This document shows, piece by piece, positions 7,168 to 25,694 of a stretch of DNA of 32,263 bases (position 1 is its first letter; each line of letters begins with the position of its first letter). Source of the DNA: Deltaproteobacteria bacterium (lineage in GTDB: Bacteria > Myxococcota > B64-G9). The notes under the pieces were generated by a model that made no database searches, was not told the origin of the DNA, and was given only the letters and a program-made list of their open reading frames with translations. The translations under genes and the position numbers were made by a program. Location: the NCBI GenBank assembly GCA_030591445.1, contig JAUVBB010000016.1:1-32263 (forward strand), written 5' to 3'.

Positions 7168-7251
7168 GCCGGCATACCTATCAGCTCGGTGTGGTAGCCG
7201 CAACCAAAGGTGCGGCCCGGACCGTCTTGCACTTGCATCTAGCTGACACCT

Positions 7252-7278
7252 GTGCTACGTATTTTCCAGACGTGTTAC
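7252..7278. promoter_or_regulatory. candidate NikR-associated repeat in the NicO/nikR divergent intergenic region
   Basis: GTGCTAC (7252-7258) - N13 - GTGTTAC (7272-7278) between divergent genes; overlaps a possible -10 (TACGTA 7256-7261) 17 bp after TTGCAT (7233-7238). Halves are direct, not inverted, so assignment is tentative. Confidence 0.3.
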
Positions 7279-7310
7279 TCGGGTATTGGGCCCGGTTACG
7301 GAGATTGTTT

Positions 7311-7727
7311 ATGACGGACATTATGCGTTTCGGGGTATCCATCGAACGGGAACTGTTGGATAAATTTGATAGCTGGGTGGGCCATCATTCCTGGGCCAAT
7401 CGTTCGGAGGCGATTCGGGATTTGATTCGGGATCGACTGGTGGAGGAGCGGTGGAGTGGCAGTGAGGATGAGGTTACGGCTACTTTGACCTATGTATATG
7501 ATCACCACGTGACCGATTTACAGGCGCGGCTGACCCGGCTGCAACATGATCACGAGGGCGCGGTGTTGAGCACCATGCATGTGCATCTGGACCACCATAA
7601 CTGTATCGAGGTGCTGGTGATGAAGGGCAAGGCTAGAAGCATCCAGAAAATGGCCGACCGGGTGTTGGGTACTCGCGGGGTCAAACACGGCGCGCTGGTT
7701 CGGACTCTGTCCGATCCGGCGGCGTAA
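7311..7727 (+). CDS. nikR: nickel-responsive transcriptional regulator NikR
   Basis: RHH N-terminus MRFGVSIERELLDKFDSWV...NRSEAIRDLIRDRLVEE; ACT-type Ni site TMHVHLDHHNCIEVLVMKG. Confidence 0.94.
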   Translation: MTDIMRFGVSIERELLDKFDSWVGHHSWANRSEAIRDLIRDRLVEERWSGSEDEVTATLTYVYDHHVTDLQARLTRLQHDHEGAVLSTMHVHLDHHNCIEVLVMKGKARSIQKMADRVLGTRGVKHGALVRTLSDPAA

Positions 7728-7738
7728 AGGGAGGCGAC

Positions 7739-8368
7739 GTGCATCTGCCTGATGGTATTCTCTCGGCTCCGGTGTGGATAGGGGCGGGCGCGGTGACGGC
7801 CGGGGCGCTTGCGCTTTGCGTGCGCAGGGCTTCTCGGCAGTTAGACGAACAGCGGGCGCCGCTGATGGGCGTGTTGGGGGCCTTTGTTTTTGCTGCCCAA
7901 ATGATTAATTTCCCGGTTCCCGGCGGCACTTCGGGTCACCTGATGGGAGCGGTGTTGTTGGCCGTCTTGTTGGGTCCGGCGGCGGCTAGTGTGGTGCTCT
8001 TCTGTGTGTTTCTGGTCCAGTCGCTGCTGTTTCAGGATGGGGGTATTACCGCGCTGGGCGCCAATTTCATCAATATGGGTCTGGTGGGGAGCTTCGGCGG
8101 CTGGGCGGTTTATCGTTTGCTTGCGGGCGGTGGCGGGCAAGCCCGTCGTAGCCTGGCTGCTTTTGTGGCGGCTTGGGCGGCGGTGGAAGTCGGAGCCTTG
8201 CTGGCGGCTCTGCAGCTCTGGGCCTCGGGCAGTGCGCCGCTTATGCCCGTGCTCTGGACCATGGGCACGGTGCATGCCTTCATCGGTATCGGCGAAGGGC
8301 TGATCACGGTGGCCACCCTGCGCTTTTTGTCGGCGGCGCGTCCCAGTCTGTTGGAGTCCGTGCCATGA
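7739..8368 (+). CDS. cbiM: ECF nickel/cobalt transporter S component CbiM/NikM-like (GTG start)
   Basis: N-terminus MHLPDGILS; INFPVPGGTSGHLMGA; RBS GGGAGG before GTG. Confidence 0.92.
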   Translation: MHLPDGILSAPVWIGAGAVTAGALALCVRRASRQLDEQRAPLMGVLGAFVFAAQMINFPVPGGTSGHLMGAVLLAVLLGPAAASVVLFCVFLVQSLLFQDGGITALGANFINMGLVGSFGGWAVYRLLAGGGGQARRSLAAFVAAWAAVEVGALLAALQLWASGSAPLMPVLWTMGTVHAFIGIGEGLITVATLRFLSAARPSLLESVP

Positions 8369-8685
8369 AGACTTTCGTGCTGGTTTTGTTGGCAGTCTCC
8401 CTGGCGGTGGCCGCTGGTTTGGCTTTGCTGGCTTCCGGGGCGCCGGATGGTCTCGAACATAGCTTGGCGTCTTTAGGGGTAGCGGAAGGCGAAGCCCTCC
8501 TGGCTGCTCCCATGGCCGACTATCAGCTGCCCGGTGAATCGCCCGCGCGCTGGCGGCAGATCGGCGCCGGTCTCAGCGGTACCTTGGTGGTCTTTTTTCT
8601 GGCCTGGCTAGCCGGTACTCTTCTTCGTCGGCGGAGGCCGCGCTCATTGCCACCCGCGCCGGCCCATTCCCAGAGCGAGCACTAG
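8365..8685 (+). CDS. PDGLE-domain (CbiN/NikN-like) small membrane subunit
   Basis: Two TM segments; ASGAPDGLEHSLASLG; 4-bp overlap with cbiM. Confidence 0.88.
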   Translation: MKTFVLVLLAVSLAVAAGLALLASGAPDGLEHSLASLGVAEGEALLAAPMADYQLPGESPARWRQIGAGLSGTLVVFFLAWLAGTLLRRRRPRSLPPAPAHSQSEH

Positions 8686-8688
8686 TAC

Positions 8689-9471
8689 ATGCACCATCGA
8701 ACCGTCGAGCAGTTGGCCGCGGGCGCGGGGCCGATACATCGACTTGATCCCCGGGTCAAGCTGGTGACGGTTTTGGCTTTCGTGGTGGGGGTCTCGACTT
8801 TGCCGGTGGTGCCGCTGACGCTTTTCTTATGGCCGGCGGTTCTGGTGCTGAGCGCGCTTTTGGTTGCGGGGCTGCCTTTTCTTTTCGTGCTGTCCCGAAG
8901 TTTGCTGGTACTGCCCTTCGTACTGATGGTGGCTATGTTCTTGCCTTTTACCCGCGGGCCCACGCCCCTTTGGGTTCTGCCCGGGCTGGAGCTGACCGTG
9001 TATCAGGAAGGGCTGCAGCTTAGCCTGGCCATTTTGATCAAGGGTGCCCTGGCCTTGTTGGCGGTTGAGTGGCTGGTTTTCACCACCCCCTTTCATCGTT
9101 TGCTTCTTGCCATGCGCGCTTTTAGGGTGCCGCGCGTGATTGTGGTGACCCTTTCTTTCTTGTTTCGCTACCTGGACTTGTTGGCCGATCAAAGTCAACG
9201 GGTGCGCCGGGCCCGGATGGCCCGGGCCCCGGGCGGGACGGTGCGTTGGCGCCTGCGTTCGACCGGAGGCATGATTGGTCGCTTGCTTCTGCGCGCTCTG
9301 GATCGCGCCGACCGCGTCCACCAGGCCATGCTGGCCCGGGGCTTCGACGGCGAAATACGGATTTTATCCTGCCTGCAAATGCGCCGGGTCGATGTGGTGT
9401 TTCTGGTCGGGGCGGGCGCTGGTTTGGTGGCGGTACCTATTCTGGGTCTGGTGGCGGGAGGCGGTTTATGA
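8689..9471 (+). CDS. cbiQ: ECF transporter transmembrane (T) component CbiQ
   Basis: HRLDPRVKLVTVLAFVV; multi-TM; RARMARAPGG and ALDRADRVHQAMLARGFDGE coupling motifs. Confidence 0.92.
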   Translation: MHHRTVEQLAAGAGPIHRLDPRVKLVTVLAFVVGVSTLPVVPLTLFLWPAVLVLSALLVAGLPFLFVLSRSLLVLPFVLMVAMFLPFTRGPTPLWVLPGLELTVYQEGLQLSLAILIKGALALLAVEWLVFTTPFHRLLLAMRAFRVPRVIVVTLSFLFRYLDLLADQSQRVRRARMARAPGGTVRWRLRSTGGMIGRLLLRALDRADRVHQAMLARGFDGEIRILSCLQMRRVDVVFLVGAGAGLVAVPILGLVAGGGL

Positions 9472-10220
9472 AACCCGGAGATCTTGCCGTGGCGGTCGAG
9501 GACTTGTCCTTCGATTATCATGGCCACCAGGCCCTGTCCGGGATCTCTTTTAGCCTGGAGGCCGGGGAACGGGTCGCGCTGGTGGGCCCCAACGGCGCCG
9601 GCAAATCCACCCTGATGCTGCATTTGAATGGATTGCTGATGGGTAGCGGGGTGGTGCGTATCCACGGACTGCGCATTGAAAAATCTTCGCTTAGCAAAGT
9701 ACGCCAGCAAGTGGGCATGGTGTTTCCCGATCCCGAAGATCAGTTGTTTATGCCCACCTTGGAAGAAGACGCCGCCTTTGGTCCCTTGAACATGGGCCTG
9801 AGCCGTCAACAGGCGACCCAACGGGCCCGGCAGGCATTGGCCACCATGGGTTTGGCCGAGCTGGGCGAGCGATCGTCTCACCATTTGTCCGACGGCGAGC
9901 GGCGACGAGCGGCCATTGCCACCGTCTTATCGATGGAGCCCAAGGTCTGGGTACTGGACGAGCCCGGCGCCAACCTGGATCCGAAAGGGCGGCGGGAGCT
10001 GATCGCGGTCTTGCGGCAGCTGCCGGGCACCGTGCTTCTGGCTTCCCACGACATGGATATGGTGGTACAAGTGTGTAAGCGTTGTCTGGTCCTGGATGGG
10101 GGAAAGTTAGTGGCCCAGGGATTAACCGAGCAAGTACTGGCCGACGCCGAGCTCATGGAGCAGCACGGACTGGAGGTTCCTTTGCGCCTGGCAAACAAGC
10201 AACGGAGTGAGACTTGTTGA
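9468..10220 (+). CDS. cbiO: ECF transporter ATPase CbiO
   Basis: Walker A GPNGAGKST; Q-loop PEDQLF; signature LSDGERRRAAIA; Walker B VWVLDEPGANLD. Confidence 0.93.
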   Translation: MKPGDLAVAVEDLSFDYHGHQALSGISFSLEAGERVALVGPNGAGKSTLMLHLNGLLMGSGVVRIHGLRIEKSSLSKVRQQVGMVFPDPEDQLFMPTLEEDAAFGPLNMGLSRQQATQRARQALATMGLAELGERSSHHLSDGERRRAAIATVLSMEPKVWVLDEPGANLDPKGRRELIAVLRQLPGTVLLASHDMDMVVQVCKRCLVLDGGKLVAQGLTEQVLADAELMEQHGLEVPLRLANKQRSETC

Positions 10221-11047
10221 GAACGCTGCCGATTCTGTTGGGGGTCTGGGTCTGGCTGGCGGGGGCGGCCTTTGCCGCCGAGCCGGTCTCGCTGCGGGAC
10301 GAAGGACTGCGCCTGCTCGAACAAGGCAAGGAGCGCGAGGCCTTGCTGAAGCTGGGCGAGGCCCGGGCCCAGGGAGCGGGCGATCCTGAGCTACGCGTGG
10401 CCTTGGGTGGGCTTTATCTGGCCCGCGGCATGTTTCAGAAGGCCTTAATCGAATACAGTCAGCTCTTGCTGAAAGATCCCAACCATGTCGAGGCCAACTT
10501 GGGTCGAGCCGATTCTCTCATCGGCTTGGGCGATGCCAAGAAGGCGGTGGGCCCGGCCAAGTTGGTTACTGAGATCGAGCCCGAGTTGGTCCGTGGCTGG
10601 CAAGTACTCGGGCGGGCATATCTCCATGACCAGCAACAAGATTACCAAAATGCGCAAAAGTCCTTCCAGCGGGCCGCCGCCTTGGCTCCTGCTGACAAGC
10701 AAGTGGGTTTGCTGCTGGCCCGGGCCTTGAACTTCGACGAGAAGGTAGAAGAAGCCATCGGCGTCATGGAAGCTCTACTCGACAAGCATCCGGGCGATCG
10801 GGACGTGCTGGTGAAATTGGCCGAGGCTCTCTATGCCTTGCGCAAGCTAGATCGGGCAGCGAACCTGGCCCAGGAGATCCTCGATAAGAATCCGGAGGAT
10901 GCCGATGCCTTACATATTTTGCGCCAAATCCGCTCCCGCCAAGCCTATGTTTTTTGGGTGCCGGTGATTGCCTTGATTGCTTTTCCGCTATTCTTCTTCG
11001 GCGTACGCTGGTTGAAAAAAGGCCGAATCCCAAAAGTAGAAAGTTAG
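10214..11047 (+). CDS. TPR-repeat protein, signal peptide and C-terminal TM anchor (TTG start likely)
   Basis: LRTLPILLGVWVWLAGAAFAAE; several TPR-like helices; FWVPVIALIAFPLFFFGVRWLKKG tail. Confidence 0.8.
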   Translation: MLRTLPILLGVWVWLAGAAFAAEPVSLRDEGLRLLEQGKEREALLKLGEARAQGAGDPELRVALGGLYLARGMFQKALIEYSQLLLKDPNHVEANLGRADSLIGLGDAKKAVGPAKLVTEIEPELVRGWQVLGRAYLHDQQQDYQNAQKSFQRAAALAPADKQVGLLLARALNFDEKVEEAIGVMEALLDKHPGDRDVLVKLAEALYALRKLDRAANLAQEILDKNPEDADALHILRQIRSRQAYVFWVPVIALIAFPLFFFGVRWLKKGRIPKVES

Positions 11048-11062
11048 TTTTCGAGAGGGATC

Positions 11063-11869
11063 ATGAAGCCTCTAGGTCTGATCTTGATGATGGCTGTCTT
11101 GATGGGTGGTGCCGATGCGTGGGCCGATGAGGCGCCGTGTCAGACCCACCACTTGGAGCCTACCGAACTCAAGCAACGCTTACGCCGTTGGCGGGGCATG
11201 TCGCCTTTCCAACGCTGGCGCTTGATCGAGGTCCGGCCGGGGACCTGTGCCGTCAAGGGCGCGGTGCCGGTGGACCTGGTTTTGCGACCGCCTCCGGGAT
11301 GGTCGACCCACAAGCTGATCTATCGGGTCAATGCGCGGATGGTGTTGGATCAGCAAAGTGGCCAACCGATGTCGCCCACCGATACCGAGACACTTTTAGC
11401 CCAGACTGCCGCCGGCGCTCGCCGCTTGATCCGGGCCGCCGAACAGCAGGAAGACTTCCACCGATTTATCGAGCGCTACGGCCCGGTGCGGGCCGAGATT
11501 GGCTGGGATATGGCGCCTCCGCAATTGCGGCTGGTCTTGCGGGCCGAGCGCTGTTCGCGCTGTCCGCCGACCAAGCTGCCCGAGTTGGTGCTGACCGAGC
11601 GCGCCAAAGATTTGGTGGTAGCCTACCAATTGCCGCGCATCGATGGCCTGCCGGCCCGGCGCGAGTTGTTACGCTTTGTCGAATCCCTCTCCTCGCAGCA
11701 GTCGGCCTGCCGGGCCATCTGGATCGAGGCCCATTGGTTGGCGCAACCGCAAGGCGATGAGTTGACGGAGGGAGTCGGTTCCTGGATGTGTAGCGCCGTT
11801 CTGAGCGGCGAAGGCTGTCCACGCATTTATTCCAAAGTCGTGACCGACGAACTGGAAGTGTTGGAGTAA
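11063..11869 (+). CDS. exported protein of unknown function
   Basis: MKPLGLILMMAVLMGGADAWADEAPC signal peptide; 15-bp gaps to both neighbours. Confidence 0.7.
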   Translation: MKPLGLILMMAVLMGGADAWADEAPCQTHHLEPTELKQRLRRWRGMSPFQRWRLIEVRPGTCAVKGAVPVDLVLRPPPGWSTHKLIYRVNARMVLDQQSGQPMSPTDTETLLAQTAAGARRLIRAAEQQEDFHRFIERYGPVRAEIGWDMAPPQLRLVLRAERCSRCPPTKLPELVLTERAKDLVVAYQLPRIDGLPARRELLRFVESLSSQQSACRAIWIEAHWLAQPQGDELTEGVGSWMCSAVLSGEGCPRIYSKVVTDELEVLE

Positions 11870-11884
11870 AGGGGAGCGGTTCTT

Positions 11885-12424
11885 ATGGAAGAGGCGCTTT
11901 CAAACTACCGGCTCTTGTTGGGCAAGCTGGATGATTTCTTTGCCCATGCCCAAGAAAAATATGCCGCCGTCATGCACTGTGGACCGGGTTGCGACGATTG
12001 CTGCCACACGCAGCTGTCGGTGTTTTCCTTCGAGGCGGCCCTGCTGGTTGAGGCGGTGGGCCATTTGTCGCCGGCTGTGCGTCAGGCGATAGTCGCCCGG
12101 GCCCGCCAAGCTGAAAAAGATCCGCAATCGCCCTGTCCCCTGCTGGTTGATCAACAATGCCTAGTTTATGCCCAGCGACCGGTCATTTGCCGAACCCACG
12201 GCCTGGCCTTGTTGGTGCCCGAGAGCGGAGAGCTCAGCGTCTGTCCGCGTAACTTCCTCGGTAGTAAACACATCGACGGTGACTGCGTGCTCGATTTGAC
12301 CCCGGTCAATCAGCTTCTGTCCACGCTGGGCCGGATTCTTACCCAGCAGGGCGAGTTGGGTCCCCTGCGCAGCTCGTTGAACCAGGCTCTGATGGAAGCC
12401 TGGGCCCCGGATGCCGCGCCATGA
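11885..12424 (+). CDS. YkgJ-like cysteine-cluster protein
   Basis: CGPGCDDCCHTQLSVFSFEAALL ... CLVYAQRPVICRTHG ... CPRNF. Confidence 0.82.
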   Translation: MEEALSNYRLLLGKLDDFFAHAQEKYAAVMHCGPGCDDCCHTQLSVFSFEAALLVEAVGHLSPAVRQAIVARARQAEKDPQSPCPLLVDQQCLVYAQRPVICRTHGLALLVPESGELSVCPRNFLGSKHIDGDCVLDLTPVNQLLSTLGRILTQQGELGPLRSSLNQALMEAWAPDAAP

Positions 12425-13119
12425 GCAAGTGGTTTATTTTGATCTCCTTGCTGTGGACTGCTTGCCCCTCTTCGACTTCGCCACCCAGTTCCGCGCCGCC
12501 CCCGGTGGTCCTGGCCCCCGATGCTGGTTCGGTGGTTTACAGTTGGCTCGACGAAAACGGCAGGATTCGCATGTCGGCCCGCATGGAGGATATCCCCTCC
12601 TCGCAACGGGCCCGGGTGGTGGTGAGCGATACCGGGCGCCCGCGCGCGGAACGTTTGCGCACAGACCGCATCATGGTGGTCGATGCCCGCCAAGAAAACC
12701 AGGATGGTCCGGTAAACTACACCTTGGTCGATCTCGACCGCTTGGGTGCCGTAAAGACCGGGGCCCCGGAAGCCGACGACCCCGCCGCTTTGGGCCGACG
12801 TGCCGCCGCCCAACTGGCCGAGTCGGCTCGGAGCTTGCTCGGCATAGCCCCGGCGCTAGCAGAAGATACCCCCGCGGTCATTCTCTATACCGCCGAGTGG
12901 TGCGGCTTTTGCAAAAAGGCCGCCGCCCATTTACGCAAGCAAAAAATTGATTTTCAGCAACGTGACATCGACCGCGATCGCGGCGCCGCCGCTGAACTAA
13001 AGCGCAAACTCCGCCAAGCCGGTCTGCGCGGTAGTGGCATTCCCGTACTCGACATTGGCGGCAATCTGGTTATCGGTTTTGACCGCAATCGTATTGATCA
13101 ATTGCTAGCCAAAATCTAA
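12421..13119 (+). CDS. lipoprotein with DUF4124-like segment and C-terminal glutaredoxin domain
   Basis: MSKWFILISLLWTAC lipobox-like; VYSWLDENGRIRMSARMEDIP resembles DUF4124; AVILYTAEWCGFCKKAAAHLRKQKIDFQQRDID...GSGIPVLDI glutaredoxin fold with CGFC. Confidence 0.82.
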   Translation: MSKWFILISLLWTACPSSTSPPSSAPPPVVLAPDAGSVVYSWLDENGRIRMSARMEDIPSSQRARVVVSDTGRPRAERLRTDRIMVVDARQENQDGPVNYTLVDLDRLGAVKTGAPEADDPAALGRRAAAQLAESARSLLGIAPALAEDTPAVILYTAEWCGFCKKAAAHLRKQKIDFQQRDIDRDRGAAAELKRKLRQAGLRGSGIPVLDIGGNLVIGFDRNRIDQLLAKI

Positions 13120-13166
13120 ATCTCGTCTTGTCATCCGGGCGCAACCGAACAATAATAGCAACCAGG

Positions 13167-15074
13167 ATGACGACGATACCCACAGCGTGTACCTATGATT
13201 GTCCGGATGCCTGCGCTTTGCAGGTGGAGACCGAGAGCGACCGGATTCACATCCGGGGGGCGCCCGATCATCCCATTACCCGTGGTTTTGTCTGCGGACG
13301 CATTCGCCGCCATGTCGGTCGGCTCCGCGATCCGGAGCGGGTGACCACGCCGCTGCTACGCCGTGAGGGCAAGTGGCAAGAGACGGATTGGCAAACGGCC
13401 CTGGATTTGGCAGCGGAAAAACTTTCGGCGGCGATGCAAGAGGATGGACCGGCCTCGGTGGTTTATCAGATGAGTGGTGGCTCGCTGGGGCTGCGAAAGA
13501 AACTGGTGGGGCACTTCTTTAGCTCCCTGGGGCCGGTGACTACGCTACGGGGCGGCGTGTGCGATGAGTGCGGAGTGGCGGCCCAGGAGCAAGATTTTGG
13601 CATGGCCGCCGGGCACGATTTTACCGATCTTGGCAACAGCCAGGCAGTTGTGCTTTGGGGCAAGAATCCGGCGGCCACCGGCGTGCATCTGATTCCATTT
13701 CTACAAGAGCGGCGGCGGGCCTCGGTACCCATTGTGCTCATCGAGGTGGTGGCGACCGAGACGGCGGCCTTTGTCGACCGCCTGGTGTCGGTAGCGCCGG
13801 GTGGAGATGGCTTCTTGGCACTTTCCGTGTTGCGGCTCCTGCTCGATAGCGATCGCCTCGACGCCCGGGCGATTGCCCGCTGTGAGAACTTTGTCCCATT
13901 CAGGGATTGGCTGGCTGGTTCCGAAATGCAAGTTGCCAGCCTGGCCCGCCAGGCCGGTGTGGCCATGGCCGACGTGGAGTTTTTGGCCGAACTCTATGCG
14001 CAGCCAGGGCCGGTGGCCACCCATCTGGGCTGGGGGCTGCAGCGCCGGGCCTCGGGGGGCAAGAACTTGCGCTGCATTGATGCGCTGGCCGCGCTCAGTG
14101 GCCAGGTCGGGATTCGCGGTGGCGGGGTGACCTATACCTCGCGGCGTAGCCGGGGCCTGGACCAAAGTTTCTTGGCCAAGAAAAGCGGCCGCACTATCGA
14201 CATAGCTAGCTACGGCCGGGATCTTGCCGCCTTGCGTGATCCGCCCGCGCGCTTTGTCTATATTCACGGGGCCAACCCGGTCTCGGCTTTGGCTGATTCC
14301 CAGGCCACCGCCGCTGCCTTGCGGGCGGTGGACTTCGTGGTGCTGGCCGATGCCTTTTTGACCGACACCGCCGATTGTGCCGATCTGTTTTTGCCGGTGT
14401 CGCTGATGCTCGAAGATCCGACCGATGCCGTGGGTTCCTTTGGCCACCATCATGTGGCCCGGGTGCGTCAGGCGGTCTTGCCGCCGACAGGGGTCCGGGA
14501 AGATGTCTGGATAGCGCAGCAGCTTCATCGTCGCCTGGGCCTTACGCCGGATCCTTGGCTGGCCGACCCCGCGGCCGCGCTCGAACGCATGGTGGCACCT
14601 TGGTTCGAGGCTTCCGGCGATGATTTTCGGCGCAACCCGACCCAGCCGGAAATCCCCTTTCAGGACGGTTTTGCTACTCCCTCGGGCCAGATGCGACTCA
14701 GCACCGAAATGCCGACTGCTGTCGAAGTCGATGCCGCTTATCCGCTTAGCTTCTTGACCGCCAAGCCGCGGTCTTACCAGCATTCGCAAATCCGGCCACA
14801 GGAGCAGCGTGGCTTGCCTCTTTGTCTGCTCAGTCCCGAGGCTCCGGGCGCCCAGGGCCTGCAAGACGGCCAGCCGGCGCGGGTGGTGAGCCCCTTGGGC
14901 AGCTTGTCCGTGCGCGTGGGTCTGCGGCCCGGCATGCGGCGTGATGTTTGCTTGCTGCCCATGGGCGGCTGGTTGCGCTGCGGGCGCGCGCCCAATGCCC
15001 TGGTGGCGGCCAAGCTTACCGACATGGGCTTCGGGACCGCATTCTACGATCAAAGAGTTCGCCTTGAATCCTGA
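13167..15074 (+). CDS. molybdopterin (Mo/W-bisMGD) oxidoreductase family protein
   Basis: ACTYDCPDACALQVE...GFVCGRIRRHVGRLRDPERVTTPLLR (4Fe-4S N-terminal domain); VLWGKNPAATGVH; YIHGANPVSALADS; C-terminal molydop-binding region. Confidence 0.88.
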   Translation: MTTIPTACTYDCPDACALQVETESDRIHIRGAPDHPITRGFVCGRIRRHVGRLRDPERVTTPLLRREGKWQETDWQTALDLAAEKLSAAMQEDGPASVVYQMSGGSLGLRKKLVGHFFSSLGPVTTLRGGVCDECGVAAQEQDFGMAAGHDFTDLGNSQAVVLWGKNPAATGVHLIPFLQERRRASVPIVLIEVVATETAAFVDRLVSVAPGGDGFLALSVLRLLLDSDRLDARAIARCENFVPFRDWLAGSEMQVASLARQAGVAMADVEFLAELYAQPGPVATHLGWGLQRRASGGKNLRCIDALAALSGQVGIRGGGVTYTSRRSRGLDQSFLAKKSGRTIDIASYGRDLAALRDPPARFVYIHGANPVSALADSQATAAALRAVDFVVLADAFLTDTADCADLFLPVSLMLEDPTDAVGSFGHHHVARVRQAVLPPTGVREDVWIAQQLHRRLGLTPDPWLADPAAALERMVAPWFEASGDDFRRNPTQPEIPFQDGFATPSGQMRLSTEMPTAVEVDAAYPLSFLTAKPRSYQHSQIRPQEQRGLPLCLLSPEAPGAQGLQDGQPARVVSPLGSLSVRVGLRPGMRRDVCLLPMGGWLRCGRAPNALVAAKLTDMGFGTAFYDQRVRLES

Positions 15075-15948
15075 CTTAGCAAGCGCCCGGGCCGATCTAA
15101 AACAGCGCTTCCGCGCGGACGGCGGTTGTTCGATCCGGCCGGACGACACGGCTTCCCGGCCCGACGCCACCGCCTGGGCTTGTTTGGCTCTGGCCCAGGA
15201 CAAAATAGCGGACCCGCGGGTGCAAGGCGCCCGCGATTTTCTGGCCGCCGGCCAAGCAGAAGACGGGCGGATCTCGATGCTAGCCGAGGCCGCCGATGTC
15301 TTCTGGCCCACGGCCTTGGCTATTTTGGCCTGGTCGGGCTCGGCGGCCCATGGGCCGGCTCGCCAAAGAGCGGTGCAGTTCTTGCTGGCCGTCACCGGTC
15401 GTCATTATCCTCGCCGGCAGGCGGCCCCCGCGGCCCATGATACCGAACTGCGCGGCTGGCCTTGGGTGGGCGGGACCCATTCCTGGGTAGAGCCCACCGC
15501 CATGGCCATGATGGCTTTGACTCTTTGCGGCCAGGCCGAGCACGAGCGGGTGCACGAGGCGGGCCGGATGTTACTAAATCGCCAACTTCCGGACGGGGGC
15601 TGGAACTACGGCAACACCGCCGTCTATGGCACTGTGCTCCACCCCTTGCCCCAATGCACGGGCGTAGCCCTGGCCGCCTTGGCGGGTCGGGTGGCTCGGC
15701 CTATAGTGCAAAAGAGCATTGCCTATCTGCAGGGGCAAGCAGCGCGCTTGCGTACTCCGCTTTCGCTTGCTTGGGTTTTGTTGGGTCTGGGCGCCTGGGG
15801 GCAAAGACCGGCGGGCGCGAGCGCGTGGCTGGGTGAGAGCCTGGGCCGGCAAGATCGTTACGGCGCTTATGATACCGAAGCGCTAAGTTTGTTGTGCTTG
15901 GCCAGTTCGGCCACGGCAGATTGGTTAGTCAATGACCCAGCCCACTGA
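15064..15948 (+). CDS. prenyltransferase/squalene-cyclase-fold (alpha/alpha toroid) protein, TTG start likely
   Basis: Repeating helical motifs (RPDATAWACLAL, FWPTALAILAW, SWVEPTAMAMMALTL) and QW-like PDGGWNYG; overlaps upstream stop by 11 bp. Confidence 0.72.
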   Translation: MNPDLASARADLKQRFRADGGCSIRPDDTASRPDATAWACLALAQDKIADPRVQGARDFLAAGQAEDGRISMLAEAADVFWPTALAILAWSGSAAHGPARQRAVQFLLAVTGRHYPRRQAAPAAHDTELRGWPWVGGTHSWVEPTAMAMMALTLCGQAEHERVHEAGRMLLNRQLPDGGWNYGNTAVYGTVLHPLPQCTGVALAALAGRVARPIVQKSIAYLQGQAARLRTPLSLAWVLLGLGAWGQRPAGASAWLGESLGRQDRYGAYDTEALSLLCLASSATADWLVNDPAH

Positions 15949-16954
15949 TCAGCACCGGCCGAAGCGCCGTATTTCCCGCCGTCGTTTTTTACAGGGTAGC
16001 CTGATTGGCACGGTGGCGGGTGTGAGTGGCGGTCTGGTCTGGCAGTTGCGTTCTGGCAAACAGAAGCCGGCTACCTTTATTGGCCGGGCTTCCGATTATC
16101 GTGCAGACTTTGCTCAACTGATTGGCGCAGGCTTGCAAGAACTTGGTTGGGGGCCCGCGCAGATACGGCAAAAGCGAGTGCTGCTCAAGCCCAATCTGGT
16201 AGAGCCGCACGCCCAGGCCGAGCAGATCAATACCCATCCCCAGGTAGTGCGCGGGGCCGCCGAGGCTTTTTTGCGCATGGGGGCCCGGCAGGTGCTGGTG
16301 GCCGAAGGGCCCGGACACCGGCGTGATACCTTGCTGGTGCTGGAAGAGTCGGGTCTGGCCGAGGCCTTGGCTGAAGATCGGATCCCGTTTAGCGATCTTA
16401 ATTCCCAGGCGGGTTGGATCTTGCCCAATCGCGGTGCTTGGACCGAGATACCGGCTTTTCACTTTCCGGCGATCTTGAACCAGGTCGACCTGATCGTGTC
16501 CTTGGCGAAGATGAAAACCCATCATTGGGCAGGCGTGACTCTGTCGATGAAGAACCTCTTCGGAGTCATGCCGGGCATGATCTACGGTTGGCCCAAGAAC
16601 GTTTTCCATCAGGTCGGTTTGCAGGCTTCGATTCTGGATATTACCGCCACCCTGCGTCCACATTTTGCCATCGTCGACGGCGTCATCGGCATGGAGGGCG
16701 ATGGTCCCATCATGGGCCCGGCCAAGGCGGCCGGGGTGGTAGTTATGGGCCGCTCCTTGCCCGCGGTCGATACCGTTTGTGCCCGAATCATGGGCATCGA
16801 TCCGACCCAAATTCCTTATTTGGACGTGGCCGCACGCCGGCTGGACCCCAGAGTGAAAAACGGTATCTGGCAAAGGGGAGAGTCTATCGCCACCGTGCAG
16901 ACCGACTTTCAGCTTCTGCCCCATATCCGCGCGCACCAAGGCATTCGACTTTGA
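15932..16954 (+). CDS. DUF362 domain protein with Tat signal
   Basis: RRISRRRFLQGSLIGTVAGVSG Tat motif; VLLKPNLVEP; VSLAKMKTHHWAGVTLSMKNLFGVMPG. Confidence 0.88.
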   Translation: MTQPTDQHRPKRRISRRRFLQGSLIGTVAGVSGGLVWQLRSGKQKPATFIGRASDYRADFAQLIGAGLQELGWGPAQIRQKRVLLKPNLVEPHAQAEQINTHPQVVRGAAEAFLRMGARQVLVAEGPGHRRDTLLVLEESGLAEALAEDRIPFSDLNSQAGWILPNRGAWTEIPAFHFPAILNQVDLIVSLAKMKTHHWAGVTLSMKNLFGVMPGMIYGWPKNVFHQVGLQASILDITATLRPHFAIVDGVIGMEGDGPIMGPAKAAGVVVMGRSLPAVDTVCARIMGIDPTQIPYLDVAARRLDPRVKNGIWQRGESIATVQTDFQLLPHIRAHQGIRL

Positions 16955-18213
16955 GCAAACAGCAGGCAAAAAGCAGCGCGGGCCCTACCCAGGGCTCCGA
17001 GCGTATCGTTGCTCTGGATGTGCTGCGTGGTTTTGCCTTGCTCGGCATCTTGATCATGAACATCCAGTCCTTCGCCATGCCTTCGGCGGCCTACACCAAC
17101 CCCACCGCCTATGGCGATCTACAGGGGAGCAATCTGCTGGTTTGGTTCTGGTCTCATGTGCTGGCCGATCAGAAATTCATGGCGCTCTTCAGCATGCTCT
17201 TTGGCGCCGGCGTGGTTTTGATGGCGGATCGGGCCGCGGCTAGTTCCCGCTCGCCGGCCGGCATTCATTACCGGCGCATGGTTTGGCTGGGGGTTTTCGG
17301 TTTGGCCCATGCCCATTTTCTGTGGTACGGCGACATTCTATTTTGGTACAGCCTCAGCGGCATGGTCGTTTTTCTTTGGCGAGGCAAATCACCCCTTTGG
17401 TTGCTTTCGGCAGCGCTGGTCATGCTGCTCATTCCCAGTTTGCTGATGGTGCTAGGCGGCCTGAGCATGTCGCTATGGCCGGCCGAGCTCAAGGCCGAAG
17501 CCGCCCAGATATGGTTGCCCTCGGCAGAAAGTATTGCTCGCGAGCTGCTTGCCTACCGCGACAGCTATTGGGGACAGATGCCTCAGCGGAGCAGCCAGGC
17601 CCTGGGCTTGGAGACCTACGTGGTGGTGTCCTTTGCTTTCTGGCGTTGTAGCGGTTTGATGCTGATGGGCATGGCTCTGTTCAAGCTGGGGGTTCTCAGC
17701 GGCGCCCGCAGTAAGAAAGAGTATGCCCAGTTACTGGCACTCTCGCTGCTGGTTGGCTTGAGCCTGGTATTGATCGGCGTTCATCTCCATTTCGAGGCTG
17801 GCTGGAGCTTGGAATACTCCTTCCTGTTTGGCATGCAGTGGAACTATTGGGGTGCCATCGGGGTGAGTTTGGCCTGGACGGCTTTAGTTATGTTGGCCTG
17901 CCAGAGCCTGCCCGCCGGCTGCTTGCGCCCGTTGGCCGCGGTGGGCCAGACCGCGCTGAGCAATTACCTCCTGCAGTCGATTGTTTGCACCTGGATTTTT
18001 TACGGCCACGGCCTGGGGCTTTACGGCACGGTCGAGCGCAGTGGCCAGTTGGCCCTGGTTCCAGTAATCTGGGTTTTTCAAATCCTGGCTTCCATGCTCT
18101 GGCTGCGCAGTTTTCGCATGGGTCCCTTTGAGTGGTTGTGGCGATCTCTGATCTACCGCCAGCCCCAGCCTTGGCGGCGGCAAAAAGCAAAGTCAGGGAC
18201 GGACGGGGCATGA
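16951..18213 (+). CDS. DUF418 family integral membrane protein (TTG start likely)
   Basis: ERIVALDVLRGFALLGILIMNIQSFAMP; FMALFSMLFGAGVVL; many TM segments; 4-bp overlaps with both neighbours. Confidence 0.88.
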   Translation: MSKQQAKSSAGPTQGSERIVALDVLRGFALLGILIMNIQSFAMPSAAYTNPTAYGDLQGSNLLVWFWSHVLADQKFMALFSMLFGAGVVLMADRAAASSRSPAGIHYRRMVWLGVFGLAHAHFLWYGDILFWYSLSGMVVFLWRGKSPLWLLSAALVMLLIPSLLMVLGGLSMSLWPAELKAEAAQIWLPSAESIARELLAYRDSYWGQMPQRSSQALGLETYVVVSFAFWRCSGLMLMGMALFKLGVLSGARSKKEYAQLLALSLLVGLSLVLIGVHLHFEAGWSLEYSFLFGMQWNYWGAIGVSLAWTALVMLACQSLPAGCLRPLAAVGQTALSNYLLQSIVCTWIFYGHGLGLYGTVERSGQLALVPVIWVFQILASMLWLRSFRMGPFEWLWRSLIYRQPQPWRRQKAKSGTDGA

Positions 18214-19172
18214 AGACCTTTGGCTTTCAGTGGCATTTGAGTGATCGTTGCAACCAGCGTTGTGCCCATTGCTATCAAGAGGATTTTACCGGGGCTAGCG
18301 AGCCGACCTTGTCGGTCCTACTGCAGATGGCCGCGCGGGTATTGCCGGCGCTGGCCGATACCCAGGTCTCGGTCAACCTGACCGGGGGTGAGCCTCTGCT
18401 GCTTAGCCATTTACCCGACTTGATCAAGAGCTTGGCCGGGTACCAAAATCTAGTTGAAATGAACCTGATCTCCAATGGCACGGTACTGGCCGAGGCGGCG
18501 CTTTCGGCCATGGCCCGCGAGCCCAAGTTTGGGCAATTGAAGATATCGATCGAATCGGCAGAGGCCCGGGTTCATGACGCCATTCGCGGTGAGGGCAATC
18601 TGGCCGTTTTGCGCAGGAATCTGCCTCGCTTGCGAAAAGCGTCGGGGCGGCCTTTGGTGCTGATGGCCACCTTGGCGCGCTATAATCTTTCTGGCATCGA
18701 ATCATTGCTTCGCTTTGCCGAAGACCATGGTGCCGCCGGCATTATCTTCGAGCGCTTTGTGCCCATGGGCCGAGGGGACCGGCTGCGCGATCAGGTCCTG
18801 GGCGGTGATGAATGGCTCCAGGCTATCGAAAGCATCGTGCGGGCCTCGGGGCTGGACGCAGATCCGGCCGATTTGCCAGCCTATCGCGCCTTCTGGCTGG
18901 CGACCGGGATCGAAGCCGAGGAGCCGCGTCGGGGCGCGCTTTGTAATCTGGGTGCCGGCTCCATGGCCCTGATGCCGGACGGGACCGTTTTTCCCTGCCG
19001 CCGCCTGCCCATTGCCGTGGGTCAGGTGCTGACCGAACCATTCGCGGCCATCCGCGCGCGCTTGCGGAAATACCAGCCGGGTGGGGACTGTGTCGGTTGC
19101 CGGGCGCTGGCAAACGCGCTAAGCGAAGATGGTTGCCAAGATGATTCCGAGTCTCCGCTTGTGCTATTATAA
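18210..19172 (+). CDS. radical SAM protein with SPASM-like C-terminal Cys region
   Basis: FQWHLSDRCNQRCAHCYQ (CxxxCxxC); NLTGGEPLL; CNLGAGSMALMPDGTVFPCRRLP...CVGCRALANALSEDGC. Confidence 0.9.
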   Translation: MKTFGFQWHLSDRCNQRCAHCYQEDFTGASEPTLSVLLQMAARVLPALADTQVSVNLTGGEPLLLSHLPDLIKSLAGYQNLVEMNLISNGTVLAEAALSAMAREPKFGQLKISIESAEARVHDAIRGEGNLAVLRRNLPRLRKASGRPLVLMATLARYNLSGIESLLRFAEDHGAAGIIFERFVPMGRGDRLRDQVLGGDEWLQAIESIVRASGLDADPADLPAYRAFWLATGIEAEEPRRGALCNLGAGSMALMPDGTVFPCRRLPIAVGQVLTEPFAAIRARLRKYQPGGDCVGCRALANALSEDGCQDDSESPLVLL

Positions 19173-19177
19173 GAGGC

Positions 19178-22150
19178 ATGACAAACCCCACCATTGAGGA
19201 CAATACCCTGGCGTCCATTGGGGATGAGGACGAGGGTGAATGCGGGGGGAGTGATCTGCAGCTTAAGGCCGGGACCTATGCCGGTCGCTATATGATTCTC
19301 GAACAAATTGGCCGGGGTGGCATGGGAGTGGTCTACAAGGCCTATGATCCGGAGCTCGACCGCAAGATTGCCCTGAAATTGTTGCGGGTGACCGGCAAAT
19401 CCGCTTCCCGGGCCGACCGGGCTCGGGATCGACTGTTGCGCGAGGCCAAGGCCTTGGCCCAATTGTCCCATCCCAACGTGGTTTCGGCTGTTGATGTGGG
19501 CACGCTGGGGGATGATGTTTTTGTGGCCATGGAGTTGGTAGAGGGCCAGACCTTGATGCAATGGATAAAGGACGAGAAGCCGAACCAACGGAAAGTGGTT
19601 CAGGTCCTGATCCAGGCGGGCCGTGGCTTGCAGGCCGCGCATCAGGCCGGTTTGATTCACCGGGACGTCAAGCCCGACAACATCATCGTGGGCGCGGATG
19701 GAAGAGTGCGCGTGCTCGATTTTGGTTTGGCTCGGGCGGCGTCGATTGACGAAATGATTGCCGAGGCCGAACAAAGGCAACGCGAGACGGCGGCCTTGGC
19801 CACGCCGAACCCGGATCCGACTGGGGTCACGCTCTCCGGTGACAGTCAGTCCGGAACCGCCAGTTTGCGAACGCGTATGACCTTGGCTGGGGCGGTGTTG
19901 GGTACGCCTGGTTACATGGCTCCCGAGCAATATCTGGGCCAGGATCTTGATGAACAAGCCGATCAATATTCTTTTTGTGTCTCCCTGTACGAAGCCCTCT
20001 ATACTTACCGGCCCTTTGAGGCCACCAGCTACCGTGAGCTAAAAAGCAAAGTCACCACCGAGCCGGTTGGTCCGCCGCCGCCCAACAGCAAAGTACCGGC
20101 CTACTTGCGGCGTATTTTGCTACGCGGCTTGGCTACCAAGAAGGAAGACCGTTACCCTTCTTTGACCGAGCTGCTGTTTGATCTGGGCAAGGACCCATGG
20201 CGGGTTTGGCGCCGGGTGATCCTGGCTGCCGTGGTGGCCCTGCTGGTGGTTGCAAGTTTCGTCACCGCGGCTGCCTACCAGGCGAGCAAACAACGTTTGT
20301 GTCAGGCGGCGGCCGAGCGTCTGGCCGGGGTCTGGGATGAGCCGACCCAGCAAGCCGTCGAGCGTGCCTTTTTGGCCACCGATCGCTCTTATGCCGGCGA
20401 CACCTTTGCGCGGGCTGACAAGGTACTTTCTCAGTATGCCCAGGCCTGGGTGACCATGCGGACCGAGGCTTGTGAGGCCACCCACTTGCGCGGAGAACAG
20501 TCAGAGCGGCTCCTGGACAAGCGCATGCACTGTCTCGATCGCCGGCTGGGGCAGTTTGGCGCCCTGACCCGATTGTTTGCGGCCCAGGCCGATGGCGCCT
20601 TGGTCGACAAAGCGGTAGCGGCGGCATCGGCATTGCCCAAACTGGCTCTTTGCGCGGACAGTGAGGCCTTGATGGCCACCAGCCCACTGCCCAACGATCC
20701 CGCGCTGCGCGGACAAATTGAAAAAGTTCGACAAAACCTGGATCGAGCTCAGGCTTTTTTGCGCGCGGGAAAATATCCCGAAGGGAAACAACTGGCGAAA
20801 CAGATTGCGCAGCAAGCTCTAGCCCTGGATTTCCCTCCGCTTCAAGCCGAGACAGAATATCTGTTGGGTTTTTTGCTGAAAGAAATGGGCGATGCCAAGG
20901 CCGGAGAACTTCGTTTGAAGCAGGCCCTGCATTTGGCCGCGGTGGCCAAAGACGATCGGCTGATGGCCAAGACGCTTGCCGAGTTGGTTCAGGTTTTGGG
21001 CGATGAGCAGGCCCGTTATGGCGAAGCGATCGAGATAGGTGTTTTGGCCGAAGCGATCGTGATTCGCGCTGGTGAGGACCCGGTGCTGGAGGCTCGCACC
21101 CTGGCTCGCACCGGTATTGTGCGGGCCCGCATGGGCGAACTGGCCGCGGCCCGAAAAGACTTTGTCCGCGCCATTGGCTTAGAAGAAAAGGCCCTGGGTC
21201 CGGAGCATTTGCATGTAGCTTCGGGCAAAGTGAATCTGGGTGCCATTCTTTTTATGCAAGGCCACTTTGCGCAGGCGCGTAAACAACACCAAGCCGCGCT
21301 TGCGATCATGGAGAGTGCGCTGGGTCCCAACCATCCAGATCTGGCCAAGCCCCACATCAATCTGGGCAATGCCCTCAACTCCATGGGTGAATTTGATGCT
21401 GCCGGGAAACACTATCGTCGGGCCTTGGAGCTTTGGGAGGCGGCGCTGGGACCGGACCATGTCAAGGTGGCGTTCACCGTCAACAACCTGGGCGATGTTC
21501 TGGAAAAGCAGGGCAAGTTGGCGGAAGCCTTGCAACACTATCAACGCGCGGAGAAGATTCTGGAAAAAGTCTATGGCCAACAACATCCAGCCCTAGCCCA
21601 GGTGATTGACAACATCGCCAACATCCATGCGCAACAGGGTAAGACGACCGAGGCTCGGGCCTTGTATCGGCGCGCCTTGGCCATCCGGGAAAAAGCACTG
21701 GGGCCCGACAATTATGAAGTGGGGGACTCGTACTACAAGCTGGGCAGTACCCTGGCCCGAGAGGGCAAGATCGAACAAGCCCTGGTTTTACTCGGTCGGG
21801 CCCTGGGTATTTGGGAGAAGGCTCTGGGTCCGGACCACCCAAAACTCGCCCATGCCCTGATCGATATCGCGGCTTGTCGGCAGGATCAGCAGGCGCCCTT
21901 GGTGGCCTTGCCCTTGTTGGAAAGGGCCCTGAAGATCCGCAAAGACAAGCAAGTCGATCAACTCCTGCAAGCCGAGGCGCAATTTGCCTTGGCCCGGGGA
22001 CTTTGGGCCGCGCATCGAGACCGCGATCGAGCGCGGGAATTAGCCCGTAAAGCGCACGCGATTTTTGCAAAGGCCGGCCAATCTCAGCAGCTTAGGCTCG
22101 GTGAGGTCGATGCTTGGCTGGCCAAGCATGGCCAGAAAGCGTCTCGTTAA
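19178..22150 (+). CDS. Ser/Thr protein kinase, TM segment, extracytoplasmic C-terminal TPR array
   Basis: IGRGGMGVVYKAYD; LIHRDVKPDNIIV; VLDFGLARA; GTPGYMAPEQ; TM RVILAAVVALLVVASFVTAAAY; TPRs ending AL(G)PDH. Confidence 0.94.
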   Translation: MTNPTIEDNTLASIGDEDEGECGGSDLQLKAGTYAGRYMILEQIGRGGMGVVYKAYDPELDRKIALKLLRVTGKSASRADRARDRLLREAKALAQLSHPNVVSAVDVGTLGDDVFVAMELVEGQTLMQWIKDEKPNQRKVVQVLIQAGRGLQAAHQAGLIHRDVKPDNIIVGADGRVRVLDFGLARAASIDEMIAEAEQRQRETAALATPNPDPTGVTLSGDSQSGTASLRTRMTLAGAVLGTPGYMAPEQYLGQDLDEQADQYSFCVSLYEALYTYRPFEATSYRELKSKVTTEPVGPPPPNSKVPAYLRRILLRGLATKKEDRYPSLTELLFDLGKDPWRVWRRVILAAVVALLVVASFVTAAAYQASKQRLCQAAAERLAGVWDEPTQQAVERAFLATDRSYAGDTFARADKVLSQYAQAWVTMRTEACEATHLRGEQSERLLDKRMHCLDRRLGQFGALTRLFAAQADGALVDKAVAAASALPKLALCADSEALMATSPLPNDPALRGQIEKVRQNLDRAQAFLRAGKYPEGKQLAKQIAQQALALDFPPLQAETEYLLGFLLKEMGDAKAGELRLKQALHLAAVAKDDRLMAKTLAELVQVLGDEQARYGEAIEIGVLAEAIVIRAGEDPVLEARTLARTGIVRARMGELAAARKDFVRAIGLEEKALGPEHLHVASGKVNLGAILFMQGHFAQARKQHQAALAIMESALGPNHPDLAKPHINLGNALNSMGEFDAAGKHYRRALELWEAALGPDHVKVAFTVNNLGDVLEKQGKLAEALQHYQRAEKILEKVYGQQHPALAQVIDNIANIHAQQGKTTEARALYRRALAIREKALGPDNYEVGDSYYKLGSTLAREGKIEQALVLLGRALGIWEKALGPDHPKLAHALIDIAACRQDQQAPLVALPLLERALKIRKDKQVDQLLQAEAQFALARGLWAAHRDRDRARELARKAHAIFAKAGQSQQLRLGEVDAWLAKHGQKASR

Positions 22151-22154
22151 ATTT

Positions 22155-25100
22155 CTATTTGCCTGGTCTTACGCAGCGGGGATAGTGGGCGGAGTCAATA
22201 AGGTCAGAAAAGACGCCGGCCACTTTGTAATGGAAGGCGATGCCCCACATTTTTGGAATTTTTGAATAAGGGTCAATCGTCTCGGTGGCTGACCAGAAAT
22301 CGAAGTATTCGCAAGATTCTTCCCATAAGGGCGACCAGAAGCAGCCGTCACCTGAGACCGGATCGGCGCCGAAGCAGGTGCAGCTGTCTACTCCGCCCTT
22401 GTCCAGGCAGTCGATCTCCTCGCAGGCACCGGCGATCACCATGCATCTGCCTCTGGGATCGAGTTGTTTACAGCCTTCGGCCAGGGTGCGCAGTTGGGAG
22501 ATGTTGGGCAGGGACCAGGTTCGACCGTGCCGCGCGCATATCTCGTAGGCCAGTTCCCAGCTTACCCGCTCTTTGCTCAGGTTGTGAGTCCAACTCTGGT
22601 CGAATTCCGAGTCGTATAGCTCGCCTTCGTTACAGGCCCACCAGCGTTCATCAAGCCGCGCATCGACACAACCATTGGTGGAGCATTTTTCATAGTCTTC
22701 GCAGCGATCGAAAAGTTCGGGCTTGTTCCAGATCAAGCTGCCGTCACAAGCGGCGCCCACGCCCGAGCACATGCGTACTTGGGTATTTAGGTACAAGCCG
22801 GTGCCACAGCCGGTGCCTTCGAGGCAGTTGAATTCCTCGGCCACCGAGGGGTCACAAACATGATCGTTGCTGTGAAAGATGGGCTGGCAAGTACCGGCGG
22901 AGCAGATGTTTTCGCGCACACAGGGCTCGGTCACGCTGCCACAGGAGATGCCACTCAAGGCGGTCCAGGCGTGCGGGTTTTGGCCCGGATCGCAGACTTG
23001 GCACTCATAGCCGTCGCGGCGGGTAGTGGCCGCATAGCAGGCACCGTCGATCAGGCACCAGTCGACCAGCAAGTCATGTTGGCAGCTGCCGTCGCTACAG
23101 AGATCGGCGGTACAGCTTATGCGGTCGTCGGTGCAGGTCGCGCCGTTGTCCGGGGCGTAGGTGCAGCCCACGACGCTGTCGCAGAGGCCGGTCTGGTAGC
23201 ACTCGGCGGGCGTGGCGCAGCTTACCGGCCTGCCGCTACAGATGCCGGCGTTGCATTGCTCATCTTGGGTACAACGGTCGCCGTCATCGCAAGTTTGGCC
23301 GTTGGCTGCGCCCGCGTTTTCAACACAGACACCCAACTCACAAGTGTCGACGGTGCAGGGATTGCCGTTATAGCATTCCTTATCGTCGGTGCAGTCGATG
23401 CAGTCGGCGTCGTCGAGATCGATGTAGCCATCGCAATCGTCGTCGGCAAGGTTTTGGCAACTTGGCTCACCGGGTGCGCCCTCGGCTTGGTTGGTGGGGG
23501 TCAGGGTATTTTGGCAGGCGCCGGTGCCCAAGCAGATGTCGGTCGTACAGGGGTCCCAATCATTGCAGTCGGGGTCGATTTGGCAAGGGGCTTCGATACA
23601 ATCCTGATTGGCATCGCAGATCAGATCATCGGCACATCGATTGTCGTCGGGAAGGTGCTTACAGACGCCGTCCATACAGACATCGCGGGTGCAGGCGATG
23701 CTATCTGCCGGACAGGCTTCGTTGTCGACTTGGGCCGGGTTGGAGCACTGGCCGGTAGCCTGGTTGCAGACGCCGGCCAGGTGACACTCGTCCTGGGCTT
23801 GGCACTGGACCGGATCCGAGCCCACGCAAATGCCTTGTAAACAGGTATCGAGCCGGGTGCAGGCGTCAGCGTCGTTGCAGGAACCCGTGTTTTTGGGCGG
23901 GTTGCTGCACAGGCCGGTTTTCGGGTCACAGCTGCCGACCTCGTGGCAATCGTCCTGGGCCGTGCACTGCACTGGCGCGGTACCTACGCACACGCCCTGC
24001 AGGCAGCGGTCGGTGGTGGTACACAAATCACCGTCGTCGCAGCTGCCTTCGCTGAGCGCTGGGTTGCTACAGGCCCGGTTGGTACATTCGTCGGCGGTAC
24101 AAGGGTTGTGGTCATCGCAGTCTTCAGGACCGTCACACTCGACACAATCCGGATCTGCCTCATCGACCAGTCCGTCGCAGTCGTCGTCTTCCAGGTTTGC
24201 GCAGTTGGCGTGACCCGCTGGTCCCTCCATGTCAGGTTTGGGAGTCATGGTGTTGCTGCAGGCGCCATCCGCTTGGCATTCGTCCAGGGTGCAGCTGTCT
24301 TGATCATCACAGTCGAGGGCGTTTTGACAGGGGGGCACCACACAGTCAGCGGTGAGGTCGCAGACCCGATCACCGCTACAGAAGTCGTCATTGACCAGAT
24401 GGGTGCATACCCCGGCGCGACAGAAATCGTCGGTACAGTCGACGCCGTCGCTAGTGCAGATCGCGTTGTCGTCCATGGCCGGATAAGCACATTGGCCGCT
24501 TTGCGTGTCACAGGCACCGTCATGGTGACAGTCGTCGGCGGCCGGGCAGACCACGGGGTCGGTGCCTTCACAAAGGCCGCTCTGGCAGGCATCTCTGCGG
24601 GTGCATTGATCGCCATCGCTACAAGCGCTGCCTTCGGCCAGGGGCGTGTTGACGCAGACGCCGGCCACGCAGTCATCTTGGGAACACTGGTTTTGATCGT
24701 CGCAGTCAGCGGCCTCGGTGCAATCGATGCAGTTCGGATCGGCCGCGTCGCTGAGCCCGTCGCAATCATCGTCGATGCCGTTACTGCAGCTGGCATTGCC
24801 GGCGGGGCCTTCGCTGCCTGGGTTCTCCTGGTGCAGGTTCGAACAGTTGCCATCCGCGCCGCAGCTGTCGACAGTGCAGGGGTCAGCATCCAGGCAATCA
24901 TCGTCTTGGCTACATGGTGGTTCCTGACAGCCGGCTTGCAGATCGCATATCTGACCCTGGGCACAGAACTCGTCGGCCGGCGCGTTGATGCAAATGGCTC
25001 CTTGCTCGCTCTCGGTACAGCTGTCAGCCGTACAGTCGATGCCGTCCGCGCAGTCGATGCTGCTGCCGCTTTTGCAAACCCCTTCGCTGCAGATCTCCGC

Positions 25101-25493: not shown

Positions 25494-25694
25494 TATATGA
25501 TTTCCTTTCATGACATAGAATTGCGCCTTGCTCAGGCCATCTTCTTAATCTTCCCGTGCAAAGTTGTATGTGATCCGGCTCACGGCTGGACAATCAGGCA
25601 GAAGGCGATTCACGGGCGAACATCGCCAAGCGCCTCCTGCCACAGTCTGGGGGCGAATACCAGCAATAACTGAAAAGTTACATGTATACTGTTT

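Follow-up and report, generated by a model that had tools for sequence, protein, structure and literature searches.

A conserved gene pair encoding an alpha/alpha-toroid protein and a LarA-fold DUF362 protein with a Tat signal

Results

The window analysed here is a stretch of 32,263 nucleotides from a Deltaproteobacteria bacterium of the phylum Myxococcota (assembly GCA_030591445.1, contig JAUVBB010000016.1, positions 1 to 32,263 of the forward strand), and this work concerns two adjoining genes of its + strand. The first (15064-15948, TTG start) encodes an alpha/alpha-toroid protein of 294 amino acid residues (aa), devoid of a signal peptide; the second (15932-16954, ATG start) encodes a protein of 340 aa which is assigned by Pfam to DUF362 and in which NCBIfam recognises a twin-arginine translocation (Tat) signal. 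The TTG start of the toroid gene is supported by the N-terminus MNPDL, common to the window toroid and to that of locus L013, and the twin-arginine codons R16-R17 of the DUF362 gene (15977-15982, + strand) belong to a Tat motif that is kept in 62 of 63 homologues. Both genes lie within a set of five overlapping open reading frames (ORFs) that a sequence-only reading had taken for one dedicated redox or post-translational modification pathway. The conserved unit of the locus is the toroid-DUF362 pair only.

The conservation of the pair was followed by a scan seeded with the conserved motifs of paired toroids, which may overlook toroids that are more distant and not paired, and the best 80 of 111 loci were kept. 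The DUF362 gene lies directly downstream of the toroid gene in all 77 informative loci, the remaining three being cut by contig ends. With start codons chosen by rule, the two ORFs overlap in 31 of these 77 loci and are at most 30 bp apart in 36 more. Paralogous copies inside one genome keep the pairing, and no toroid-DUF362 fusion protein was found among 43 places, where the longest toroid open frame reaches 472 aa. The carriers, of which Solidesulfovibrio aerotolerans, Fundidesulfovibrio agrisoli and Singulisphaera acidiphila are named examples, span about nine or more bacterial phyla, including Nitrospirota, Nitrospinota, Thermodesulfobacteriota, Myxococcota, Planctomycetota, Acidobacteriota, Verrucomicrobiota, Fibrobacterota and Actinomycetota, and the pair also occurs in records labelled Pseudomonadota and Bacteroidales; most carriers are metagenome bins, whose single taxon assignments may be wrong. 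The pairwise-distance matrices of the two proteins are correlated (r=0.74, where permutations reached at most 0.24), a correlation due in part to shared ancestry. The toroid tree places the window with the same-family genome G007 and puts G005 and G003 together in another group; this split would be compatible with separate histories inside the family, the deep branches of the tree being weak.

The AlphaFold2 model of the DUF362 protein (predicted local distance difference test, pLDDT, 91.8) was compared with the PDB by Foldseek, and all 18 matches at E<=1e-3 are nickel-pincer proteins of the LarA type. These fold matches are in line with the Pfam classification, in which DUF362 and Lar_N (PF09861) are separate families of one clan, CL0471 (PMC11770544). 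At the level of sequence, the window protein matches only DUF362 in Pfam, without a Lar_N match, and the DUF362 alignment profile gave no match against PDB sequences. LarA proteins were taken from the pair genomes, aligned and compared with DUF362 by hhalign: in seven of seven local alignments, the residues H129, H197, K207 and H226 of DUF362 coincide with H108, H174, K184 and H200 of LarA1, in which His108 and His174 are catalytic, Lys184 holds the cofactor and His200 is a nickel ligand (PMC11770544). In the 63 DUF362 homologues, H129 is conserved in 62 and each of the three other residues in all 63. Other DUF362 paralogues of the family genomes keep H197 and K207, without H129 and, for some of them, without H226. 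Furthermore, LarC is present in 40 of the 42 pair genomes and Lar_N is detected in 24; 17 of the 18 genomes without Lar_N have LarC, so that LarC occurs without detectable Lar_N in 17 of the 42, including most of those from Nitrospirota.

The toroid protein is modelled by AlphaFold2 with a pLDDT of 95.6 as a single alpha/alpha barrel with QW-like motifs. Its best Foldseek matches are drimenyl diphosphate synthase, the RabGGTase beta subunit and squalene-hopene cyclases, together with the sugar-active AprG and MmpH, and in Pfam it reaches SQHop_cyclase_C below threshold (24.2 bits for a cut-off of 26.1). Residues W132, R173, W180, N181 and G183 are invariant in 63 sequences. DxDD is not conserved among these toroids, and they have no invariant or near-invariant cysteine of the kind found in the Asp-Cys-His zinc site of prenyltransferase beta subunits; an ordinary squalene cyclase or prenyltransferase was rejected as an identity for the toroid on account of these absent catalytic motifs. 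None of the 63 toroids has an N-terminal hydrophobic segment, and the protein should therefore reside in the cytosol, or leave it only as a passenger.

The neighbouring ORFs of the toroid loci were clustered and the recurrent families named by Pfam, which brought out TadE, TadG, a TadZ-like ATPase, TadA (T2SSE), TadB/TadC (T2SSF), the secretin RcpA, RcpC/CpaB and a prepilin peptidase. Of the 80 loci, 43 have at least one Tad/Flp pilus gene no more than 8 kb away, and 26 have three or more; in 13 loci the end of tadC is found 10-98 bp upstream of the toroid gene on the same strand. A case within the family of the window is G005, where the pair stands beside secretin, TadA and peptidase genes. 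RcpC is located at most 20 kb from the toroid in 17 of 37 genomes, which is far from random according to a binomial test whose chance rate (1.5-3% per genome) is a rough estimate. The Tad label changes at least 11 times on well-supported branches of the toroid tree, on which short contigs blur the 'no Tad' label, and the association is therefore not one inherited block. The co-occurrence at the level of whole genomes is uninformative in the phylum, RcpC being present in 148 of 195 genomes and in five of five pair genomes. The neighbours in non-Tad loci are genes for TPR proteins, glycosyltransferase 2, YfhO, methyltransferase, UbiA, PAP2 and acyltransferase, and no recurrent lar gene beside the pair was found among the commonest families of the 119 neighbours.

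Some further features of these neighbourhoods are recorded here. The complete genome of Singulisphaera acidiphila (G223) holds three toroid copies (C1:2404164, 4755185 and 7058609), one of which is 1.9 kb from RcpC. In G003, two adjacent related proteins are encoded beside the pair (L010:10593-12871, - strand); the one submitted to Pfam gave no match, and the first of the two has a pilin-like hydrophobic stretch at its end. Proteins of about 500 aa that form a family without a Pfam match (L013:1844-3364) recur near the pair in nine loci from several lineages.

As regards the window itself, the pair is preceded by a gene for a molybdenum oxidoreductase of the bis-molybdopterin guanine dinucleotide type (13167-15074, + strand, ATG start, with an in-frame TTG at 13128 as a possible alternative; Pfam Molybdopterin, Fe4S4 and Molydop_binding) and followed by genes for a YeiB-like DUF418 membrane protein (16951-18213, + strand, TTG start) and a radical SAM protein that matches SPASM weakly (18210-19172, + strand, ATG start; Pfam Radical_SAM). 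The assignment of the third neighbour to DUF418 comes from Pfam and its YeiB-like similarity from NCBIfam; DUF418 belongs to the TmAT acyltransferase superfamily (PMC12423673). The sequence-only reading was right in its description of these genes: all five ORFs are present and intact, with successive overlaps of 11, 17, 4 and 4 bp, Pfam recognises four of the families, the toroid is identified by fold search, and the division into cytoplasmic and exported or membrane proteins holds. None of the five reaches an NCBIfam equivalog cut-off, and no GeoRSP system is indicated, the best match of the radical SAM protein, GeoRSP_rSAM (TIGR04303), scoring 89.3 bits for a cut-off of 400.

The tightly packed + strand run to which these genes belong spans from about 7191 to 22150. 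Upstream lie cobalt/nickel ECF transporter genes (CbiM/PDGLE/CbiQ/CbiO) and TPR, unknown, YkgJ-like and glutaredoxin genes (7739-13119, + strand; Pfam and synteny), a block conserved in the family of which the molybdenum oxidoreductase gene is the last member; its YkgJ-like protein is of the CxxCxxCC type and its glutaredoxin is a DUF4124-glutaredoxin. Downstream, a gene for a Ser/Thr kinase-TPR fusion (19178-22150, + strand) starts 5 bp past the radical SAM gene and closes the run, and it is followed by an ORF of 1118 aa without a Pfam match (22155-25511, - strand). Because the packed run extends further both ways, the five-gene boundaries are arbitrary and overlap alone marks off no five-gene unit.

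The idea of one five-gene pathway did not survive the comparison of neighbourhoods. None of the 80 toroid loci has a relative of the molybdenum oxidoreductase or of DUF418 nearby, and a radical SAM gene is near the toroid in a single one, at 28% identity. In four further genomes of the phylum that have the toroid, DUF362 is next to it in all four and the three other genes are nearby in none. In the same-family genomes, the oxidoreductase block, the pair and the radical SAM gene are on different contigs; parts of the block occur in G008, G001 and G004, without the pair, and the eight other family genomes contain no DUF418 relative. The rarity elsewhere, which the earlier reading had named as its refutation, thus applies to the set of five, while the toroid-DUF362 adjacency is obligate. 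A five-gene pathway as a conserved system is ruled out by this synteny across the 80 loci and the same-family genomes, and the molybdenum oxidoreductase, DUF418 and radical SAM genes are neighbours specific to the lineage, brought together by a packed run of + strand genes. A remnant of local synteny is seen in G007 (L135), where a kinase domain 62% identical to that of the window is encoded on the other strand, at a distance of about 1.6 kb from the radical SAM orthologue. The upstream CbiMNQO genes were considered as a link to nickel, but their presence was treated as a coincidence, because relatives have that block without the pair. Separately, molybdenum oxidoreductase frames in G000 (C200:1113-2063), G001 (C3) and G004 (C332) carry one in-frame TGA at the same relative position and look like selenocysteine-containing formate dehydrogenases.

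Discussion

The model we propose is that of a cofactor-loaded, LarA-like DUF362 protein exported by the Tat pathway with the assistance of the toroid and acting on a hydroxy-acid or sugar-acid group at the envelope or pilus; we give it a probability of roughly 0.42. In this model the functional unit is the translationally linked pair. The DUF362 protein would take up its fold in the cytosol around a nucleotide cofactor that is tethered to it, most likely the nickel-pincer nucleotide (NPN), with K207 holding the cofactor, H226 ligating the nickel and H129 and H197 forming the acid/base pair. A LarA-like enzyme whose cofactor is made in the cytosol would have to be loaded before export, because Tat moves folded proteins, and the Tat machinery would thus export the loaded form. 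Once exported, the DUF362 protein would work in the envelope, where it would racemise or epimerise a hydroxy-acid or sugar-acid group by hydride transfer, an activity that in many lineages may be tied to Tad/Flp pili or surface glycans. The toroid would be a cytosolic maturation or Tat-proofreading factor, or else a subunit co-exported with DUF362, and an obligate partner without a signal of its own fits either role.

Several observations weigh against this model. The TM-scores between DUF362 and LarA are about 0.4, profile comparison with LarA gives modest E-values (0.002-0.03), and hhalign in global mode recovered the quartet of residues in only one of seven alignments. Residues R75 and D72 of LarA, which contact the phosphate and ribose of the cofactor, are not clearly kept: the region aligns loosely, and K86 and N88 of DUF362 are invariant there, although their equivalence to R75 and D72 is not proven. 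Generic DUF362 proteins likewise keep H197 and K207. LarC is absent from two of the 42 pair genomes and is common in any case (175 of 195 genomes of the phylum), so its co-occurrence with the pair is not discriminating. As for the pilus, no Tad gene is seen in the available stretch of 37 of the 80 loci, and the window pair has none as a neighbour in the stretch tested, the RcpC gene of that genome being on another contig. The points that concern the cofactor would be accounted for if the pair were real and its DUF362 protein LarA-folded but the ligand were a metal, an envelope metabolite or a nucleotide other than NPN, and we regard such a non-NPN protein as a possibility of real weight, if still short of even odds. 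It has to reckon, however, with the near-invariance of all four residues that correspond to the catalytic and cofactor residues of LarA, among which H129, the counterpart of H108, sets this subfamily apart from the other DUF362 proteins of the family.

The toroid might instead be an enzyme itself, of the class II terpene-cyclase or prenyl-transfer type, acting on a lipid carrier or a glycan whose exported product would be the substrate of DUF362. Its fold matches to terpene cyclases, prenyltransferase beta subunits and sugar-active barrels, its invariant pocket-type residues (W132, R173, W180 and N181) and the UbiA, PAP2, glycosyltransferase and YfhO genes among the neighbours speak in this direction; we nevertheless consider it improbable, since the DxDD and zinc-site cysteine are not conserved, the predicted location is cytosolic and a maturation role explains the obligate pairing with a Tat substrate equally well. 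Far less probable still is the survival of the five-gene proposal in a restricted form, as a lineage-specific redox or modification pathway assembled so recently that it is unseen elsewhere. The overlaps between the ORFs imply co-transcription, and a radical SAM enzyme and a protein of an acyltransferase superfamily could share one surface product, but the family genomes hold orthologues of the molybdenum oxidoreductase, with its block, and of the radical SAM protein away from the pair, they lack DUF418, and the packed run continues well past the five genes.

What would the pair mean if the proposed model is correct? About 15% of surveyed prokaryote genomes contain larB, larC and larE without larA, and the proteins that use NPN in them are unknown (PMC11796402). 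The pair would be one of these missing clients in genomes making NPN without LarA, and it is a concrete candidate, whose lysine K207 can be tested. NPN chemistry would then extend to the cell envelope, a DUF362 subfamily would gain a function, and Tad pili or surface glycans would acquire a new accessory. The full-text literature that we searched, outside of which subscription journals largely fall, describes no system with the composition of the five genes, in agreement with the sequence-only reading, which could name none, and contains no link between DUF362 and squalene cyclases, no Tad-linked toroid and no Tat-exported NPN enzyme. The stronger statement, that the pair would be the first Tat-exported periplasmic NPN enzyme, loaded through a dedicated maturation factor of terpene-cyclase fold and acting at an often Tad-piliated surface, is in our opinion doubtful when taken as a whole.

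Compared with known systems, the DUF362 protein shares with the LarA racemases and epimerases (Lar_N; 5HUQ, 9EIA, 9Q3J) the fold, the clan and the aligned quartet, and it differs from them by its Tat signal, its shorter length, its obligate toroid partner, the lack of a Lar_N match and the uncertain phosphate and ribose residues, its cofactor being a predicted one. Within the DUF362 family, its best NCBIfam match is the Npun_F2552 family (NF052623), at 86.9 bits for a cut-off of 500. The toroid has the alpha/alpha barrel with QW-like repeats of class II terpene cyclases and prenyltransferase beta subunits, but it consists of one barrel only, without DxDD or zinc-site cysteine, and is coupled to a Tat substrate. 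Neither protein is a described component of Tad/Flp (type IVc) loci, and many pair loci have no Tad gene nearby, although the pair is often found within or adjoining such loci, with tadC directly upstream in the 13 cases mentioned above. Finally, TorA-TorD and NarG-NarJ are pairs of genes for a Tat substrate and its dedicated maturation factor. The fold of the toroid is unlike those of TorD and NarJ, and its role as a chaperone is a putative one, but the pair likewise unites a signal-less partner with an adjoining Tat-exported protein of the cofactor-binding type.

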